A DNA stretch of 64,000 bases, from the NCBI RefSeq assembly GCF_000296695.1, contig NZ_BAFK01000014.1, positions 1 through 64,000 of the forward strand. Reading direction: 5' to 3'. The position numbers and the translations under genes were made by a program. The stretch is from Rheinheimera nanhaiensis E407-8 (GTDB lineage Bacteria; Pseudomonadota; Gammaproteobacteria; Enterobacterales; Alteromonadaceae). Below are positions 16,014-64,000 of this stretch, in pieces. The notes beneath the pieces were generated by a model. The model did no database searches. It had not been told where the DNA came from and saw only the letters and a program-made list of their open reading frames with translations. Positions within the stretch are counted from its first letter, which is position 1. Every line of letters starts with the position of its first letter.

Positions 16014-18554
16014 ATGAAATATTACACTGCATTAAGCCTGTTACTACTCAGCGTTGTGAGTTCCGCTAAGCCAGCATACAGCCCGGCCCCCAGCCAGTCG
16101 ACCCTGCCCGCTCCGCAGCAGGTGCTGGGTTTTACCGTGGGTGACTGGCACGCCCGCCATGATCAGATCCAGCGCTACTTTGAGCAGCTCGACGCAGCCT
16201 CAGCCCGTGCGCAGCTGGAAGTTATTGGTTATAGCCACGAACAACGGCCCTTGCTGCAGCTGGTGTTGTCGTCTGAGCGCAACATGCAGCGGCTGGAGCA
16301 GATCCGCCAGCAGCATGTTGCCGCCGCCCGCGATGGCGCAACTCTGCCGGACGATGCGCCGGTGGTGATCTGGCTTGGCTACAGCGTGCATGGTAATGAG
16401 CCCAGTGGCGCCAATGCGGCTATGTTGGTGGCGCAGTATTTGGCCGCCGCCGAAACTGCCGAGGTGAAACAGTGGCTGGAAAACGCCATTATCTTATTGC
16501 AGCCGGTATTAAACCCGGACGGCCATGACCGCTTTGCGCTGTGGGCCAATATGCACAAGGGGGCGGCACCGGTGGCCGATCCACAGCACCGCGAGCATAT
16601 CGAGCCCTGGCCTAATGGCCGGCCAAACCATTACTGGTTCGACTTAAACCGCGATTGGCTATTACTGCAGCATCCGGAAAGCCGGGCCCGTATTGCGCAG
16701 TATCAGCAGTGGTTACCGAATGTAGTGGGTGACTACCATGAAATGGGCACCAACAGCAGTTACTTTTTCCAACCCGGCATTCCCAGCCGCAATTATCCGC
16801 TAACGCCCAAGCGCAACTTTGAGCTGACGGCAGAGCTGGCGCAGTTTCATGCCGCAGCATTCGATGAGCGCGGCCAGTTGTATTACACCGAAGAGAGTTT
16901 TGACGACTTCTATGTTGGCAAAGGCTCAACCTATCCGGATATTCAGGGCAGTGTCGGTATTTTATTTGAACAGGCCAGTAGCCGTGGCCATTTGCAGGAC
17001 AGCATTAATGGCCCGCTTAGTTTCAGTGCCACTATTCAAAACCAGCTGACAGCTTCGTTATCAACCATTCGCGGCGCAGTGGCCAAACGTGCCGAGCTGT
17101 TGGCTTATCAGCAGTCGTTTTATAAATCGGCCTTACAGCAAGCGCGCGCCAGTAAAATTAAAGGCTATATGCTAACGGAGAGTGCGGATAAAACCCGGCT
17201 GGCTGCGTTGCTGGACGTGCTGCAGCGCCACCATGTGCAGGTGTATGCCCTAAGCCGCGACTGGCAGGATGATGACAACAGCTATGCCGCTGGCAGCAGT
17301 TATTATGTACCGCTGCAGCAACCGCAATACCGGCTGATTAAAGCTATGTTCAGTACGGAAAAAACCTTTAAAGATAATACCTTTTATGATGTGTCAGCCT
17401 GGACCTTACCCTACGCCTACAATATTGCTTTTACTGCGCTTAACCGTGAACCGGCAAGTAGTTTGCTAAGCAGCAGTTGGCCGGCGGCACCGGCCAAAGC
17501 ACCGCCGCTAACTGCAGGCGCTTATGCCTATGCGTTTAACTGGCAGGATCAGCAGGCGCCGTTATTTTTGCAGGCGTTACTGGCCGAGCAGTTAGTGGTG
17601 CGCGCAGCGATGAAAGACTTCAGCGCGCTAAGTGGTGACGGCGAAATAAGCTTGCCGGCCGGCAGCATGGTGGTGGCTGCTGGTTTGCAACAGCAGCAAG
17701 ACTGGTTCGAGCGTCTGCAGCGCGTGCAGCAGCGCTTTACGTTGCCGCTGCAGGCAATCCGCTCGGGTTTAACCCCTACTGGCAGCGATTTAGGCAGCCA
17801 CAACTTTAGTCCGGTGCAGTTGCCACAGGTGTTACTGCTGGCAGGGCCGGGGATGAGCTCTACTGAGGCCGGTGAAGCCTGGTATAACCTGGAGCGACTG
17901 GCCGGTATTTCGCCCAGTATGGCCGAGCCGCAGCGTTTAGCACAGCTGGATTTAAGCCGGTACAGCCATATTATTTTGCCAGATGGCAACTACCGTAGCT
18001 GGCAGGACACTGAGGTGACTAAGCTACGCCAGTGGCTGGAGCAAGGCGGTGTGCTGTGGGGCCATAAAGGGGGCGCTGCCTGGCTGGCGCGGGTGGGTTT
18101 GCTGAAGACCGGCGTCTGGCAGGGCGAGGAAATGAGTAGCCTGATCCCGGCCGATAACCTGCAGTATCAGGATAAAGAGTTGCTGGCCGGCAAACAGCGT
18201 ATTGCGGGGGCGATTTATCAGGCCGAGCTGGATTTAAGCCACCCGTTAACCTTTGGCCTAACCAGTAACCGTTTACCGGTGTTTAAGAACAGTACCAGCT
18301 TGCTGCAGCCCAGCCACAAACCCTTTGTTAATGTGGCGCTGTACAGCGAGCAGCCACAGCTGGCCGGTTACACGGCAGCAGAATACCTGCCGCGCATCAA
18401 ACAAAGTGCAGTGCTGCTGGCACACAATGCCGGTAAAGGCCGGGTGATTGCCATGACCGATAACCCGGTATTTCGCGGCTATTTTTATGGCTCCAGCCGG
18501 CTGTTGGTCAATGCACTCTATCTGGGCCACAGCTTTAGCGCTGACGCCGGTTAA
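16014..18554 (+). CDS. Secreted M14-family zinc carboxypeptidase
   Basis: An 846-residue exported metallopeptidase. A signal peptide (MKYYTALSLLLLSVVSSAKP) precedes a carboxypeptidase A-like domain in the first ~370 residues: zinc ligands H126 and E129 (HGNEPSG), third ligand H242 (GDYHEMG) and catalytic E319 (LFEQASSRG), plus the NPDGHDRF and DLNRDW substrate-binding blocks. The C-terminal ~450 residues include a class-I glutamine-amidotransferase-like region (ILPDGNYRSW, LRQWLEQGGVLWG) typical of this subgroup. It probably degrades peptides in the periplasm or outside. An AAGGA site precedes the ATG. It sits between nfuA and comF, an insertion relative to E. coli gene order, and its stop overlaps that of comF by four bases. 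Confidence 0.93.
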   Translation: MKYYTALSLLLLSVVSSAKPAYSPAPSQSTLPAPQQVLGFTVGDWHARHDQIQRYFEQLDAASARAQLEVIGYSHEQRPLLQLVLSSERNMQRLEQIRQQHVAAARDGATLPDDAPVVIWLGYSVHGNEPSGANAAMLVAQYLAAAETAEVKQWLENAIILLQPVLNPDGHDRFALWANMHKGAAPVADPQHREHIEPWPNGRPNHYWFDLNRDWLLLQHPESRARIAQYQQWLPNVVGDYHEMGTNSSYFFQPGIPSRNYPLTPKRNFELTAELAQFHAAAFDERGQLYYTEESFDDFYVGKGSTYPDIQGSVGILFEQASSRGHLQDSINGPLSFSATIQNQLTASLSTIRGAVAKRAELLAYQQSFYKSALQQARASKIKGYMLTESADKTRLAALLDVLQRHHVQVYALSRDWQDDDNSYAAGSSYYVPLQQPQYRLIKAMFSTEKTFKDNTFYDVSAWTLPYAYNIAFTALNREPASSLLSSSWPAAPAKAPPLTAGAYAYAFNWQDQQAPLFLQALLAEQLVVRAAMKDFSALSGDGEISLPAGSMVVAAGLQQQQDWFERLQRVQQRFTLPLQAIRSGLTPTGSDLGSHNFSPVQLPQVLLLAGPGMSSTEAGEAWYNLERLAGISPSMAEPQRLAQLDLSRYSHIILPDGNYRSWQDTEVTKLRQWLEQGGVLWGHKGGAAWLARVGLLKTGVWQGEEMSSLIPADNLQYQDKELLAGKQRIAGAIYQAELDLSHPLTFGLTSNRLPVFKNSTSLLQPSHKPFVNVALYSEQPQLAGYTAAEYLPRIKQSAVLLAHNAGKGRVIAMTDNPVFRGYFYGSSRLLVNALYLGHSFSADAG

Positions 18555-54200: not shown

Positions 54201-57200
54201 GACGCCTGATGGCAGCGAGAGCTTACTGGGAAGCAGTGAAACAAATGCGGCCGGCCTGGCGCGCTTTAACTGGCTGACGCTGGGTGAAAAAGTCGGGGCT
54301 TACCAGCTTAAAGCCAGGTTAGCAGACTATGGTGCATTACAACCGGCAGTACACAATGTAGATATCTTGCCGGGCATGCCGTTTGCTCTGCAGGTATCGC
54401 ATATCAGGCCGGTGCAGGCAGCTAAAACCATGCTGTTGCAACTGGAACTGGTAGACGCGGCTCAAAACCTGATTTACAACCGTGATGATTTCAATGTCAC
54501 GCTGGGCTTTAACGCGCCGGGCTTCCATTTTGCCTTTACCGAGGGCCTGCAACTGCGTCAGCGTTATGATGAACAAGGCGTCTATCTGGGCGAAGCAGCA
54601 CAGATCCGTCTGCGTGCAGGTAAAGCCGGGCTTGAAGTGACGGTGCCAGAACTTGCCAATATCTATCAGTTGCAGCTGTTGGCCAGTGAGCCGCCGGGTT
54701 TGCAACTGCATTACCAGCCTTATTTGGCGCAGCCGTCATTCATACAGGTAGAGCAGATCCCGGTACAGGTTATCGCCGCCGAGGCTGCGCTGCTTGAACT
54801 GAGTGTTGCTGAGTTGGCTAACCATCCGCTTGGCCGGCCAGACGTGCTGGAAGCCGGCGAACAGGTGCATGTCGCAGTGCAGCTGACCGACCGCTACGGC
54901 AATGCCATCGGCCACGTTGTCGCCGATGGCCAGCCACAGGATGCTAATTTAGTCCTGCAATTTGCCGTAACAGGTGCGGCCCGGTTTGCCAATGACAATA
55001 GCAGTACTGAGCTGACGTTAACCGCCGGTTCCGGCCGGTTAACCCTGGGTAATGAGCAGGTAGAACAAGTGGTTGTCAGCCTGATCTCTGAGCCGGGTTT
55101 TGCCATCAATGCCTTTGCAGAGCTGACACTCGACTTTGTTAAACGCCTGCCGGCAGTGCAGCAGATAACGCTGGAAGCTGCGCATCAGAGCGAAATCACG
55201 CCAGTGCTGTTTAGTTTCACCGAAGCGGTTATCGCACCGGTGGACAGCCAGTGGTTGCGCATTACTGATCCAAACGGCGAGCTGGTGGCCGGTGAATTTA
55301 GCCAGGATACGCCACAGCAGCTGCGCTTTGTACCGGCACAGCCACTGATGTTGTATACGCAATACCGCTTTGATACCACAGTTTCAGCGTTGCTGGGCGA
55401 GTTGCAGTCCGATTCGGTATTGCCACAGCAAGGTTCGTTCTTAACGGCTGCTATGTCGCTACCAGAGCAACAGCAACCCTATTTGTTGTCCGAAACACAG
55501 CAGCAACTGACAGTGCGTATTGGACAGGGTGTGCCGTCCCGGCAACAGGTTCAGTTAGAGCTGCACATTGATGGTGAGCCACAGAGCTTTAATGCGCAAC
55601 AGCCGCAGTATTTGGCCCCGCGGACCAGCATTGAGCAGGAAGGCGAGTTGCTAATGCTGCAAATACAAGAACCTGCTGTATTACAACCTTGGGCAGTTGC
55701 TGCTGAGCAGCCACAAAGTCTGTTGGTAGCCAATACAATTGCTCTACCACGTCTTAGCCTGGACGGTGACTACGATGGCGACGGCTTACCCAACCTGTTC
55801 GAGCATCAGTTGGGCTTAGATCCAACGCGGCGCGACAGCGATGGCAATGGTGTCGATGATGGCGATGAAGACTACGATAATGATGGCCTGAGCAACCTGC
55901 TTGAACTGCAGCTTGGCACTGATCCGCGCAACCCGGACAGCGATGACGATGGCCTGTCAGACGGTATGGAATATCAGCTGGGCACCAACCCGCTGTTAAA
56001 GGACAGTGACGGTGATGGTATACCTGATGCAGTTGAAGTGCATTTCGGCTCCGATCCGACCCGGGCTGACAGTCGTGCAGTCGACCCGGCAGCGGTAACC
56101 GCCATCACAGTAACACCGAAAGAACGGGTGTATAACCTGAATCAGGACAGCGGCGACGTTTATCTGACGGTTAAAGCCCGGGTGTTGGTGGCGGGACGCA
56201 GTTATGACATTGACGTCAGCGATGTCGGTTACTACCCGTTACAACTGAGCTCAGCCGACGAGGCGGTTGCCTTGCCGGGCTTTGATGGCTTTACCCCGCT
56301 GGGCGCTGGCGTTACCACGCTAACTGTAGGGTTCGGTCAGCACAGTGATACGGCCCGCTTAACGGTGTTGCAGCGTAACTCGCTGGGTGATGTTAGCTGG
56401 CAGGATGAAGATCCACAGTTTGACAGCCCAATCTCTGTCGACAATATGACCGCCAGCGGCCGTGTGAATCTGTCTGTTGCCGGCGATATCACTATCGATG
56501 GCAACCTGCTGTTGCAAGTCGATACTGAGCTGATGATTGAAGCGAATAGCCTGACTATACAGGGCGATGTAATACTGCAACCTGGCAGCAGGCTGCGACT
56601 GTTACTGCAACACGATGTAGCGATAGCAGGCAGCGTTACTCAAGACAGCGCGGCGCTTGAACTGGCGCAGTTTAACCTTGATATCGGTGGTTCATTGCAA
56701 ATCAGCGGCGACAGCGAGCTTTACGCTCGCAGGCTGACAGTGCGTACCGATTCGGCGCTGCTGCCAAGCAGTTATCTGCTACTGGCGTTGACCGACGGCT
56801 GGTATACCGAGGGCGATCAGTGGCTGTACGGTAAAGTTGAGGCCGCCCGGGCCGATGCCCAGTTGCAGCAACTGTATCCGGTGGCATTGCATGTTGGGCA
56901 AAAACTGACCGCTACGGGAGCTATTGATGCAGCCGGTGCCGGCTATCCGGCCGGTTATGGCGTTGGCTTTATTGAAGGCCGCTGCCTGGGTCGTCATGCG
57001 GATGATACAGCAGAGCAACCTGATTGCGCCTACGGCGATTACCGCCGGCCAGTATTGGCGGGTGCCGGTGGCGTGCAAGGCGCAGGCGGTGGCGCAGTGC
57101 ATATCACGGCAAATCGCCTGTCACTGGACCGTGACAACTACAGAGACTGGATCAATATCGCCGGTGATAACGATGCCGCTGATGGCAGTGCTTATGTCGA

Positions 57201-60200
57201 TGTGCACGAGCTGCAGGTACTGAATGTAGGCCAGATGGTACGTGGCAAACAGATTAACTGGGAAGAGCGCGATAATGCCGGTGGTGCCGGCCGTGCTGCG
57301 GTTAAGGCCGTGCTATGGGATATTCAGTTGTCAGATGATGACTGCTATGACTGTGAACCACCGTGTGAGGGGTGCGAATTTGAGATGGGAGGTGCTGATG
57401 AAGTGATGGTGTTGCAATCTGAGGCTGAAGAAGCACCTGAACTGATTGCTACCCGCAAGGTGCTGCGAACCATCACCCAGGGGCTGTTTACACAATATTG
57501 CTATGAGATATGTGAAACGTTCTCGCTATCCGGAACGGCTTTTGTGCAAGGGCCGGATGGCTTGAGCCTATTAGCCATTGGCACAGAGCAGTGGTTCGAG
57601 CCACCGATGTTATCGGGGCTAAGTAGTAACGACATGGGCATATCGGCCAGCAATATTGAGTTGCCTGCGCAGGTTGCGCCGTCATCTGCAGAGCAAACTA
57701 ATAGCCTGCAAAATGTTATAGATGACTATATACCCAACCGCACCCGAGTGTTGACAGTAGGCAAGCACGCGTTGCAAACGGTATCTGCGCTCGGTGACGG
57801 CCAATGGCAACTGAATGTTGCTGATCAGCCATGGCTGGGTAATAGCGCCGACAAGGGCAGAGCATTGGCAGGGATGACCGTACGCTTAACTGACGGTCAG
57901 CAGCAAAGCCAGGATCTTACTATTGTTGCGAACAGCGCTAATAGCCTGACAGTGCACAGCGATCTGGACCTGACCTCCTTTAGCGGTGGGCAAATCCAGG
58001 GTGTGCACAAACTGACAGAGTTATGGCTGGACGGGCCGTTGGATCTGGCTGACGACTTGCTGGAAGCGGCTGAAGTGCGGTTCGGTGATAGTGCCGCATT
58101 GCAGGCCAGTTTAACTGGCGAGCAAGTTCGCACCTTATTGGAAAACAATGATGCTGCCTATCTGTTACTTGCCACTGAACAGCCGTTGCAATTTGCTAGC
58201 TTGCCTGATGGCAACAATGTAACGCTGGTTGCACCGTCTTTCGAGTTCCTTGATGACGTTACTTTATCAGCGATTGATCTCATCGCCAGTAATGGTATGC
58301 AATTCAGGCAGTCATTGTTTGTTGAATCATCGAGTAGCTTGATATCTAAGGGTGATATACATGTTGGCGGCAATCTGACTTTCAATACTTGGCAGGATGA
58401 CAAATTCAGGCTGGCAGGCAAGTTGACGGTTGCCGGTGATGCTATGTTATCAGGCACCGTTACTTTTGATGGCAGGTTGTCAAATACAGCCGCACCACTC
58501 AAAGCACAGGTTGAAGTGGGCGGCAAACTGGTACTGGATAACTGGTCCAGCGGTTTCCGTATGCTGTATGCAGGGGGCAAACCCATGACCAGCGACCATG
58601 CTGGCGCTGCGTTGGCGGGTTGGCACGCAACAGCACCTCTATTGTCAGTCGAATCAGTCCAGCCTATGGGTAATTATCGCAGGCCACAGTCCTGGGGTTA
58701 CGGTGCCTTAATCGATGAGCGTTGCGACAGCGATTACTGTATGCAAAATGCATATGGCGGCGGACACATGCATATTAAAGCAGCAGAGATTGACTTAAAT
58801 GGTGTTATTTCCGCGACTGCCCACGATATGAGTGGCGCCAGTGTGCTGATGCCCGCCGCGGCTGGCTCTATCTTGATAGAGACGGCTGTTCTGCGTGGTA
58901 ATGGTAAGCTGGAGGCGCTTGGAAGCACTCATGCATCGAGCATTGGTGCAGGCGGGCGCATTGCACTGTTAGTAGAGCAAAATGAATTTAGCGGCCTTAC
59001 GTACACGATGAGTGGCGGAGGCGATTTTACGACCGGCACTGTGTTTATCCAGGCGGCACATCAGCAATATGGTGAATTGCGTCTTCAGGGTAGATGGAGC
59101 TGGGACTCTCAGAGGTATACCCCATGGTTAGACTTACCGACAGTAGGACAGCATGCCATTAGTGCAGTTGAAAGCCTGCCGGCACAGCAGTGGCGTATTA
59201 CTGCCGCTGCAGCCAACTGGCCGCTAACAATAGACAGCCAGCATGTTGGTCTGGCAGGTGCTTATGTAACGCTGGACGCCGCCCAAGCCGATGCACCACT
59301 GTATAAAGTACTCAGCAGTACGGCCGATAGCCTGCTGGTTGAGTCTGCAGCCGACCTGTCCGCTTATAACGGCAAAACCCTGCAAGGTGTGCATGTGTTT
59401 GACCGGATTGAACTGGGCAATTCTGTACGGTTGGATATTGGTGACGACAGGTTGGTAGTGCTGGATCTCGATAGCTCTGTCATTGGCAACTGGGTAAAAC
59501 TGATCGCTGCCGATGTTGCTCCTGAGCTGGTACAGCGTATTCAGGGTAATAACGGTGAGGTAATGCCGCGCACCCTGACGCTGGATTCGCTAACTCTGCT
59601 TAGTGGCAGTGAGCAACTTACTGCACGGCATGTGGTTATTAATGGCGATATCCAGCTACTGGGCGATGCGCAGTTAATTAGCAAGGCTACTGATAGTATT
59701 ACCGTTAATGGCAACGTTACCCTGGCAAATACCGCCCGTTGGCAGCAACAACTCGAGGGCATGCGTTTGCATATGACCGGCCAGCTACTGCTAACTGACA
59801 ATAGTAAGTTGCACTTTAGTGCACCGCTAACCGAGCTGCGGCTTGACCAGGGCATGCAGCTATACGGTGCAGCGTCGGCAGAAATCCATGCACGAAGTCA
59901 CATCGAACTCGATAGCGACCTGACGGTGGCAGATCTTGCACTGGTAAAACTCTATACCGCAGCCGAGATAAACATTAATGGTAGCCTTGCGCTGACATCT
60001 ACCGCTGAGGGCTCATTGTTACAGGCTAAGGGCTTGAGTGTTGGAGAAAATGTAACCTTAGCTGCATCCAGCAAATTGCAATTGGCAGTGGAGGAAATTA
60101 GCCGGGTTGCCGGAGATTTGTCACTGCAAATGCATAGTTTGCTGTCGTTAAATGGCAGGTACATCAACAACTATAGTCATTTGATGCCGCATCAGACATT

Positions 60201-61735: not shown

Positions 61736-62563
61736 ATGAAAGCGGTAATATTCACAGTAGCAGCACTGGTGCTGATCCAGATCAGTGGCTGCAGTAAAAA
61801 ACCAGAACACTTCGCCACGGTAGGTGAGCAAAATGTTACTGTCGATGAAGTTAATGCCTATCTGACATATAAACGTATTGATAACGCCAATACAGAACTG
61901 ACGGCCAAAGCAGCGCAGCATTATTTAAATAATCTGGCGTTAATTCAGGCAATAGAGCAACAAGATAGTGTTGATATGCTGAGAATTAATGCGGAATTAA
62001 CCGAACTGAAAAAAGATTTGTTGCTTAACACTTATTTGCAACAGTATCTGGAGCAAGCCGTTACTGAAACGGCGATGCGAAATTACTATGCCGACAATCA
62101 GCAAAACTATCAGCAACGTAGTGCTAAGGTAGCCCATATTCTGTTCCGGGTAACACCTGAGATGACCGAAGCTGAACGCCAGGCAAAGTATAGTAAAGCG
62201 CTGGAAGCTTACAGCAAGGCCCGTACTGGTGATAACTTTGCCGAGTTAGCCAAGGCCTATTCAGAGGACAGTATTTCTGCCGGTAAAGGCGGACAGCTGG
62301 GCTGGCTGCAGCACGGGGCTGTATCACCGCTGTTTTCTGCCCAGGTGTTTGAGAAATTGACCGCCGGTGAAATATCAGAGCCGGTATTAACCGAATTTGG
62401 TTATCACCTGATAAAACTGGAGCAAGAACCTAATACGGTAAAGCAATCTTTTGAAGCGGTTAGTGGTGATATACGCCGTATTTTACGCGCAATGGCAAAA
62501 GATGCTGAACTGGAGCGGCTGCGCCAGAGCGTAACCATTAAACAGCACGACACACCGCTATGA
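61736..62563 (+). CDS. Parvulin-type peptidyl-prolyl cis-trans isomerase lipoprotein
   Basis: A 275-residue lipoprotein: MKAVIFTVAALVLIQISGC with lipidated C19 and Ser at +2, consistent with the outer membrane. A SurA-like helical N-terminal region precedes a parvulin rotamase domain (about 128-232) with the hallmark blocks KVAHILFRV, FAELAKAYSEDSISAGKGGQLGW and FGYHLIKLEQE. It should speed up folding of proline-containing proteins in the periplasm. A GAGGTAAG ribosome site precedes the ATG. It resembles EpsD/PpiC-type isomerases of envelope and exopolysaccharide loci. Its position directly after a giant exported protein suggests that protein as client; this is inference. Confidence 0.92.
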   Translation: MKAVIFTVAALVLIQISGCSKKPEHFATVGEQNVTVDEVNAYLTYKRIDNANTELTAKAAQHYLNNLALIQAIEQQDSVDMLRINAELTELKKDLLLNTYLQQYLEQAVTETAMRNYYADNQQNYQQRSAKVAHILFRVTPEMTEAERQAKYSKALEAYSKARTGDNFAELAKAYSEDSISAGKGGQLGWLQHGAVSPLFSAQVFEKLTAGEISEPVLTEFGYHLIKLEQEPNTVKQSFEAVSGDIRRILRAMAKDAELERLRQSVTIKQHDTPL

Positions 62564-63414
62564 AAAGCCGCAGTGTTGTACTGTTCGTGGCGTTATGTAT
62601 AAGCGCTTGCAGTGATAAACCCGCACCGCAACCCAACGTCGATTCTGATCCGGTTCTGGCCAGGGTCGGCAATGAGACAATTAGCCGGTTGGAGCTTGAT
62701 GTCGCGATTGATAGCAGCATAGGTCCTTATGCTGCTTTACATCTGGGGCCGGAGGGCGAGCATAAGGTGTTGCAGAGTCTGGTAATGCGCAAACTGATGA
62801 GCCAGCATCAGTTTGCCCTGCTGGACGAGGACGCTCGTACAGCACTGGAACTGCAGGTCAACGCCTACCGTGAAGAACTGCTGACCAAGCAGTTTGTCCG
62901 TGAGCAATTGATACCCGAGCCAGTAACAGAGGCCATGGTAACGGATTATTACCAGCGCTACCCTGAGGAATTTGGCGCCGCAGAATATGCCAGTTACCAA
63001 CTGCTACGCGCCGACACGGGATTAAACCCTGAGCAGCGTCAGCGCGTGCTGTGGTATCTGGAACAACTGACTGCCGCAGCTGACTGGACAATATTGGCAG
63101 AACAGGCGCGGCAAGAAGGTTTAGCAGTATATCTGGTCGCAGGTACCAGCTCAGAGCAGGGTTTAATAGCGGAATATCAGAGCTTAATTGCGCCGCTTGC
63201 TGCCGGCCAGGTCTCGGCAACTGCCGAGTTGAACAACCGTCTTGTTAAAGTGAAAGTGCTTGAGCGCAATCGTATCGCAGCTAAACCATTGGCTGATGTA
63301 AGTGACGAAATCAGAAAAAAACTGGCACCTATGCAGTTAAAGCGTGCCATAGAACAGGCAACGGATAACCTTAAGGCTAACACGGATGTTGAAATCTACC
63401 CCACTTCCAACTAG
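62560..63414 (+). CDS. SurA/PpiC-like lipoprotein with degenerate rotamase region
   Basis: A 284-residue lipoprotein: MKSRSVVLFVALCISAC, lipidated C17, Ser at +2. The segment VLARVGNETISRLELDVAI and the following helices match the N-terminal chaperone part of SurA/PpiC proteins. Where a parvulin domain should be (about 145-245) the hallmarks H-I-L, S-E-D-x-S-A-x-x-G-G and F-G-Y-H are missing, so isomerase activity is doubtful and a chaperone role is more likely. The ATG overlaps the preceding stop (ATGA, 62560-62563), so translation is coupled. The pair looks like a diverged duplication. Confidence 0.8.
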   Translation: MKSRSVVLFVALCISACSDKPAPQPNVDSDPVLARVGNETISRLELDVAIDSSIGPYAALHLGPEGEHKVLQSLVMRKLMSQHQFALLDEDARTALELQVNAYREELLTKQFVREQLIPEPVTEAMVTDYYQRYPEEFGAAEYASYQLLRADTGLNPEQRQRVLWYLEQLTAAADWTILAEQARQEGLAVYLVAGTSSEQGLIAEYQSLIAPLAAGQVSATAELNNRLVKVKVLERNRIAAKPLADVSDEIRKKLAPMQLKRAIEQATDNLKANTDVEIYPTSN

Positions 63415-64000
63415 TTGTATCGTTGGCAGGTTTCGCACCTGGCTGTTGTTGGCGCTATTGCTTGGTCTGGCTGCCTGCTCTGATGATGCCAGGCCACCTG
63501 AACACGTTAACGCAGTACGTTACGCGTTATACACTGACACTACTGAGCTGGCTGCACTGACGGAGCCTGACTATCAGGGGTTAGCCCCCTATATGACCGC
63601 GCAATTAGCAGGTGCCCATGCGGTTAAAGCCGTAAGTTACGAAGGCTATTTTTTTAGTAAGCGGCCGCAGCTGGTTAAGATTGAATGGCGGGCGCCGGGC
63701 GACAGTGTGCTAACGCTGAATGGCCGCAAGCTGGAAAACGGCGAGTATTTTATGCTGAATAAAGGCCAGCAGCGTCTGCATTTGCGACATACATCGTCAA
63801 TGCAGATAAGTCCGGTCGTCGAGCTGGTTTATGCCAAAACTGGCAAAAAACAATTGTTAAGTCAGGGCGGGCTATACCTGCCACTTTCTGAGCTAACGGC
63901 GACAAGCGCTGTACTCCCGGCGGATACGACCCAGGGTTGGTCTTATCAGTATTTCGAGCAGCAAGCACTTGAGTTTTCTCAATTATCAACATTGGCGCCT
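63386..64000 (+). CDS. Third lipoprotein of the locus, unknown function, 3' end outside window
   Basis: The frame is open from ATG 63386 to the last base, 205 codons, so it is truncated by the window. It begins MLKSTPLPTSCIVGRF and has a lipoprotein signal RTWLLLALLLGLAAC, with lipidated C31 and Ser at +2, again outer membrane type. It overlaps the end of the preceding gene by 29 bases in another frame. The mature part (ALYTDTTELAALTEPDY, YEGYFFSKRPQLVKIEW, LTLNGRKLENGEYFML) looks beta-rich and matches no family I recognise. It may start further downstream, but the lipobox supports this frame. It likely belongs to the giant-protein locus and may itself be much longer. Confidence 0.75.
   Translation, partial: MLKSTPLPTSCIVGRFRTWLLLALLLGLAACSDDARPPEHVNAVRYALYTDTTELAALTEPDYQGLAPYMTAQLAGAHAVKAVSYEGYFFSKRPQLVKIEWRAPGDSVLTLNGRKLENGEYFMLNKGQQRLHLRHTSSMQISPVVELVYAKTGKKQLLSQGGLYLPLSELTATSAVLPADTTQGWSYQYFEQQALEFSQLSTLAP

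Follow-up and report, generated by a model that had tools for sequence, protein, structure and literature searches.

The window analysed here is the whole stretch of 64,000 bases at C42:1-64000, where C42 is a contig of 109,779 bases in an assembly of 3.99 Mb (G000). It closes on four genes on the plus strand, and by reading the same contig past the window edge we were able to add a fifth. Gene 1 (24166-61635) is a single intact ORF encoding a giant exported protein of 12,489 aa. It is followed by gene 2 (PpiA, 61736-62563), whose product is a lipoprotein in which the parvulin-type PPIase domain is intact, as judged from Pfam, its histidines and its lipobox, and by gene 3 (PpiB, 62560-63414), which encodes a lipoprotein with a degenerate PPIase-like domain, assigned from Pfam and the lipobox. 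Gene 4 is open at the window end, where 205 aa of its product are visible (63386-64000); gene 5 (C42:68578-74913) follows it with a 4-base overlap and encodes a 2111-aa effector with a signal-like start. From the spacing of consecutive genes, -29 to +104 bases, we infer that the unit forms one operon.

The giant protein was found by Pfam to carry Ig-like domains (Big_7/Big_5), IPT/TIG and LVIVD domains, bacterial TSP3 repeats and a C-terminal PPC domain, together with a weak bactofilin-like stretch, and its start is signal-like. Counterparts of 12,545 aa (89% identical) and 11,925 aa are present in G017, the nearest relative within the genus, and in G054, respectively, and the protein is predicted to be a surface arm or scaffold. 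Its length is very large for a bacterial protein. PpiA matched Rotamase (7.2e-25) and Rotamase_3 (4e-26) in Pfam; His134 and His224, which we take to be the active-site histidines of a parvulin PPIase, are kept in all 23 orthologues, and a strict lipobox in 20 of them. PpiB matched Rotamase_2 (1.8e-08) and has a lipobox in 19/22 orthologues, among whose conserved columns there is no histidine, both of the histidines conserved in PpiA being gone. It is predicted to be a non-catalytic chaperone. Genes open at the 5' end were excluded from all lipobox counts (3 of 26 in the case of gene 4).

The first-pass annotation had described gene 4 as a truncated third lipoprotein that matches nothing known and overlaps its neighbour by 29 bases. 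The ORF and the overlap with gene 3 (63386-63414) were both confirmed, the G017 orthologue (69% identity over 1728 columns) having an identical overlap at its start, and the gene does continue past the window, to give a full length of 1731 aa (C42:63386-68581). The lipobox, LAAC ending at residue 31, was also correctly read, and the designation as a third lipoprotein holds in this genome. It does not hold across the family, in which only 7 of the 23 orthologues with a complete start have a strict lipobox (that of L040 being doubtful) and the remainder mostly have ordinary signal peptides, as judged by eye; lipidation, so far as such motifs predict it, is not a family-wide trait.

The statement that the sequence matches nothing known proved accurate for the 205 visible residues, within which neither Pfam nor NCBIfam reported a match up to E 1. 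Over the full length, Pfam at E up to 1 placed Glucodextran_B above its cut-off and Big_5, Big_6 and PA14 below theirs. When the N-terminus was scanned alone, PA14 (PF07691) matched at about residues 226-305, just past the window edge, with 22.8 bits against a cut-off of 24 bits, and the N-terminus of the L038 homologue reached 17.7 bits against the same cut-off; a two-row profile built from the N-terminus gave one PDB match, which was not credible (E 0.2). As a whole, the protein is without an established family, and neither it nor its relatives carry more than generic domains, so that the full-length sequence did not fall into a well-characterised unrelated family.

Comparison with the relatives showed gene 4 to be built of two unlike portions. 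In the five proteins scanned, the N-termini differ in domain type, being PA14-like in the present protein and in L038, TSP3 with Ig in Pseudomonas otitidis, DUF7305 with He_PIG and TSP3 in a Hahella record, and LamG with another lectin-type match in an Olavius-associated record. On this comparison the visible N-terminus is part of the variable portion of the family. A linker rich in P/E lies at about residues 526-570, and matches confined to it (about 502-616; 23/60 genomes) were not counted as homologues. The C-terminal ~880 aa align with proteins from other genera. In the last ~500 residues of 11 relatives, Pfam at E to 0.1 detected Big_5 in 10 and CarboxypepD_reg in nine, often weakly, and any other unrelated family was confined to three members at most; match positions were available for a single member. 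The last ~175 residues (about C42:68050-68578) hold many invariant or near-invariant positions and no shared Pfam family. Searched as a profile, the C-terminus gave a best E of 0.047 against the PDB. An AlphaFold2 model of this region in the L038 homologue (500 aa, 11 sequences) had a pLDDT of 87, and its best Foldseek matches were other Ig-type stacks at low TM-scores, pilin-like domains also being found. These matches covered mostly residues 6-324 and barely reached the last ~175 residues, and we do not claim a new fold; a ZU5-like character of those residues is a guess.

Gene 4 had further been proposed as the most likely place to learn the function of the locus. Reading on from the window was indeed informative, since it led to an effector whose toxin-like C-termini are exchangeable, and to likely immunity genes behind it; it was the C-terminus of gene 4 and above all the next gene, not the visible N-terminus, that were telling. 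The N-terminal ~900 aa of the gene 5 effector are conserved and, as read by eye, the effectors begin with signal peptides. Among the N-terminal modules of nine relatives no Pfam family occurred in more than one member (best E 0.0077), and a profile of the module had no match in the PDB. This one module is joined to several payloads. In a tally of 23 effector genes, RHS occurs in L040, L042, L046, G448 and G677, accompanied by PT-HINT in L040 (Cellvibrio) and G677; an alpha/beta hydrolase (Abhydrolase_6) in G756 above the cut-off and in G576 below it; Peptidase_M15_3 in G344; and a payload without a recognised family in two short effectors, G048 and G315. The tally leaves out G772 (judged RHS by eye, with an N-run inside the gene), L047 and the fragments in G113 and G092 (all at contig ends), and one broken piece of a G048 effector. 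The G048 locus (L032, L033; G048:C1:1996794-2011426) has several effector-module genes in a row, one of them in two pieces, and also encodes an 820-aa protein without a Pfam family; a 791-aa gene, likewise without one, lies at the matching position in G315.

The payload in the present genome contains no RHS by Pfam and ends in a tip bearing the motif R..D..L..ExK..D, as do 13 effector genes in the tally (L039 weakly). Sixteen tips selected with a tip profile, three of them orphans, keep this motif throughout at 16-38% identity to the first row of the alignment, and D140, E153 and K155 are invariant in all 16. The arrangement D...ExK is the catalytic signature of PD-(D/E)XK nucleases, and from its motif alone the tip of our effector is predicted to be a nuclease of this type. 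The 16 tips fitted no family among the Pfam, NCBIfam, PADLOC and PDB profiles, the isolated weak matches in the family libraries each concerning one member of the 16, and a profile from a smaller tip alignment had no match in the PDB. An AlphaFold2 model of the L038 tip was discarded at a pLDDT of 36.

Compared in 60-residue blocks, the G000 and G017 effectors share 83-98% identity between residues 601 and 1740, after which identity falls to 18-28%. Their divergence is not confined to the tip, as the first 600 residues range from 48 to 97% by block. Identity between the two genomes is 76-98% for PpiA, PpiB and three flanking genes, and at most 29% for the genes downstream of the effector. Downstream in our genome lies an orphan nuclease-type tip of 263 aa (C42:76847-77638; L002:16848-17636), detected with the tip profile, which is closer to the main tip of G017 (39%, 2e-53) than to the main tip of its own locus (25%). 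Given the abrupt drop of identity at the tip and an orphan nearer to the main tip of G017, the pattern in these sequences is that of tip exchange. Both Rheinheimera-group payloads share one motif, and differing payload families were seen only between genera. Other orphan tips were located in G344 (region coordinates 17641-18516) and G048 (56627-57616), with a fragment in G889. At L096 (G448), RHS-type ORFs of 469 and 454 aa with identical starts lie 3' of the RHS effector, and may be silent C-terminal cassettes.

Directly 3' of gene 5 lies a likely immunity gene (C42:74900-75862), closely packed with a second (C42:75855-76742), and a further one (C42:77645-79114) is found 3' of the orphan tip. 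A same-strand gene begins within 300 bases after 21 of the 23 effector genes, at -35 to +16 bases in 20 of these cases; the two loci with no such gene within 300 bases, L040 and G448, are both RHS. We scored the next genes for an N-terminal hydrophobic signal, using a threshold that was not fixed beforehand. In the calibration, eight cytosolic genes scored up to 1.49 and 23 of 25 exported ones at least 2.15, the other two, with long predicted starts, scoring 1.16 and 0.53. The next gene was without a signal peptide after all 13 nuclease-type payloads and after the three RHS payloads that have a downstream gene, a small sample (16/16, score at most 1.56), and had one after all three hydrolase/M15 payloads and both payloads without a recognised family (5/5, score at least 2.11). 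For nuclease against hydrolase/M15 payloads, Fisher's test gave 0.0018 with related sequences treated as independent. In G344 and G048 both kinds of next gene occur within one locus. A nuclease requires a cytosolic immunity protein and an envelope-directed enzyme a periplasmic one, and the predicted compartments fit toxin-immunity pairs. The genes directly downstream of the effectors are likely to be cognate immunity genes.

The order of the genes was compared across 26 distinct loci, neighbours being taken as ORFs of at least 240 aa. The effector follows gene 4 in 23/23 loci uncut at that side, with gaps of -55 to 310 bases. Upstream, PpiA was present in 23 of 23 testable loci and PpiB in 22, being missing in G051, and the position of gene 1 is occupied by an ORF of at least 1015 aa in 22 of 23 loci uncut at that side, the exception being G576 with 348 aa where the contig ends; 20 of these 23 ORFs are detectably similar to our giant. 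The set excludes L043, L044 and L045, which duplicate G576, G047 and G046; also left out were L038, whose contig is that of G017, a G047 fragment of 3.5 kb and the weakly matching G542. The giant gene of G170 (L076) lies on the opposite strand, divergent from PpiA, an arrangement not seen at the other loci for which that side was examined.

Relatives of gene 4 were observed in 12 of 394 genomes of the order (own included), 8 of 369 of the class (own and the weak G542 match included) and 2 of 398 of the phylum (own included); the plasmid collection held no match. A two-pattern scan of named GTDB genomes returned 11 gene 4 loci, in Rheinheimera, Hahella, Cellvibrio, Pseudomonas otitidis, Motilimonas, Zooshikella, two Gammaproteobacteria MAGs, an Olavius-associated record labelled Delta 1, and records labelled Desulfobacterales and Deltaproteobacteria. 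Within the 394 order genomes, an independent search found the effector module in 12, and 10 of these have gene 4 as well (hypergeometric 2e-16, relatedness ignored). One partner was seen on its own in four genomes, gene 4 in G047 and G051, where it sits on a 3.5-kb contig or is cut by a contig end, and the effector in G092 and G113, on contigs that begin inside it (G092:C256, 4,097 bases; G113:C50, 6,950 bases). At E 0.01, the profile of the other partner found nothing anywhere in these four assemblies, and the partner may really be absent from them.

Taken together, we consider it probable that the locus is a polymorphic-toxin system with a surface apparatus of its own, used for attacking neighbouring bacteria. 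This reading is built on the directly observed gene order, modularity of the effector, replacement of its tip, the orphan tip, the relation of the predicted next-gene compartment to payload class, and the catalytic-type motifs. The course of events that we propose, including toxicity, immunity, surface location, docking and binding, and delivery to neighbours, is inferred from sequence. The apparatus proteins would be exported by Sec, as suggested by signal peptides and lipoboxes found by eye and by pattern, the giant would form a long Ig/TIG surface arm, and PpiA and PpiB would act as envelope-tethered folding factors for the giant or the effector. The variable N-terminus of gene 4, be it PA14-, TSP3/Ig- or LamG-like, probably binds a target or the matrix; the conserved C-terminus is the probable docking site at the surface for the conserved ~900-aa N-terminal module of the effector. 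The effector, presented or released there, would enter neighbouring cells with its C-terminus as the toxin (a PD-(D/E)XK-type nuclease here; RHS/HINT, alpha/beta hydrolase or peptidase elsewhere), and the downstream immunity genes would protect kin. No outer-membrane channel was recognised among the genes of the unit.

We put forward more tentatively that arm, parvulin pair, gene 4 and effector could constitute a distinct, unnamed Gram-negative machine for delivering polymorphic toxins. It would be characterised by an arm of 10,000-12,500 residues, by a pair of active and inactive parvulin lipoproteins as dedicated folding factors, by gene 4 as a conserved partner at the surface whose target-binding N-termini can be exchanged, and by nucleases, RHS/HINT toxins, hydrolases and peptidases carried on a ~900-aa module. 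If the locus is a toxin system, the role of gene 4 can be read in two ways. Gene 4 could be a recognition protein that chooses the target and shares the operon with the effector without contacting it, as N-termini that vary among the five proteins scanned beside a conserved C-terminus would allow; we think this rather unlikely, as a conserved C-terminus is what would be expected of contact with the other conserved parts of the unit.

It is improbable, in our estimate, that the effector leaves the cell by an ordinary named export route (T2SS/Sec, Maf, two-partner secretion/CDI, T6SS-Rhs or TcdB/TcaC) to whose delivery step the neighbouring genes contribute nothing. The effector signal peptides read by eye would agree with the T2SS/Sec class of Zhang et al. 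2012 (Table 1), the upstream lipoprotein recalls MafA/MafB, and a T2SS is encoded in most of these genomes. Among genomes carrying the unit, 19 of 20 have GspD above the cut-off, but so do 22 of 24 hand-picked ones that lack it; the T2SS being equally common in the latter, dependence on it was dropped as evidence. Against a named route, Pfam at E up to 1 gave our effector no match to TPS, SpvB, PAAR or MafB-N, and at E up to 0.1 it gave none to N-terminal modules from nine relatives. Moreover, the same neighbours accompany the effector in Gammaproteobacteria and in records labelled Deltaproteobacteria/Desulfobacterales, and because they recur so widely they are unlikely to be accidental. That the locus is instead one for surface adhesion or biofilm matrix, with gene 5 encoding an accessory secreted enzyme, a nuclease or hydrolase that serves nutrition or turnover of the matrix, is very doubtful: genes 1 and 4 are built of the Ig-like, TIG, TSP3, LamG and PA14-like domains typical of adhesins, and alpha/beta hydrolase and peptidase payloads do exist, but RHS and PT-HINT pretoxin modules sit on the same N-terminal module, orphan tips and an abrupt identity drop at the tip are present, and the predicted next-gene compartment tracks payload class as toxin-immunity pairs predict and a digestive enzyme does not.

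CdiA/CdiB systems comprise a very long exported protein with a C-terminal toxin and an adjacent immunity gene. All of these have parallels in the present unit, where the immunity genes are likely ones. The unit differs in that toxin and long arm are two different proteins, that no TPS domain was found by Pfam in the effector (own, and modules of nine relatives) or in the giant, and that no CdiB-like barrel was recognised in the eight ORFs scanned; a TPS leader is listed for the CDI class in Table 1 of PMC3482391. With RHS toxins, of which there are T6SS-PAAR, TcdB/TcaC-SpvB and Sec-exported types, the unit shares RHS payloads (L042, L046, G448), combined with PT-HINT in L040 and G677, but its N-terminus is the unrecognised ~900-aa module and not the PAAR or SpvB of the T6SS-PAAR and TcdB/TcaC-SpvB types. 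PpiA has the standard parvulin domain and lipobox of PrsA-type proteins, with the PrsA and SurA models below their cut-offs; PrsA, SurA and PpiC differ from the situation here, in which a dedicated pair belongs to a fixed unit and the second copy is without the conserved histidines.

The logic of the unit would be that of polymorphic toxins as outlined in PMC3482391, with Maf as the nearest analogue. On our reading, both have an exported toxin with a conserved N-terminal domain and a variable C-terminal toxin, a dedicated upstream surface partner and a place on a genomic island, going by the same source and PMC7738311. In the latter, the outer-membrane partner encoded beside the Maf toxin is presented as a separate secretion route, and the former notes that the Pfam model DUF1020 partly overlaps MafB-N. 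Our effector had no MafB-N match (own, E up to 1; nine relatives, E up to 0.1), and the unit, whose partner protein is large and Ig-rich, also has two parvulin-type lipoproteins and a giant 10,000-12,500 aa long. The upstream partner in Maf is lipid-anchored and needed for secretion; upstream of the effector here lies a predicted lipoprotein, 16 of whose 23 orthologues are without a strict lipobox. A search of the open-access literature, with most subscription journals and preprints outside its reach, found no description of the five-gene unit. If the proposed function is correct, the known polymorphic-toxin routes would be joined by a delivery apparatus whose arm is very large. Two new protein families, the gene 4 C-terminus and the effector N-terminal module, would become usable for finding toxins and immunity genes elsewhere, dedicated parvulin lipoproteins would gain a concrete client, and the crossing of the outer membrane by such large exported proteins would become a testable question.

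In both G000 and G017 the unit lies between the same two genes, tex and greB, and carries different tips. An Rfam scan of the locus (L002) found nothing. In all six other genomes of the genus examined at this site (G001-G006), tex adjoins greB with no such unit between them, and among 30 other genomes of the genus only G017 matches the conserved part of gene 4. The site was compared within the genus only, as tex has other neighbours in G031 and G033, which belong to other genera of the family. As gene names, tex, greB and ompR are presumptive, being assigned from sequence. An ABC-2-type transporter pair lies beside the unit in G000 (C42:79256-80940) and about 7 kb beyond it, flipped, in G017 (C1:191294-192999), a placement that, on comparison of the two sequences, is a rearrangement near the island.
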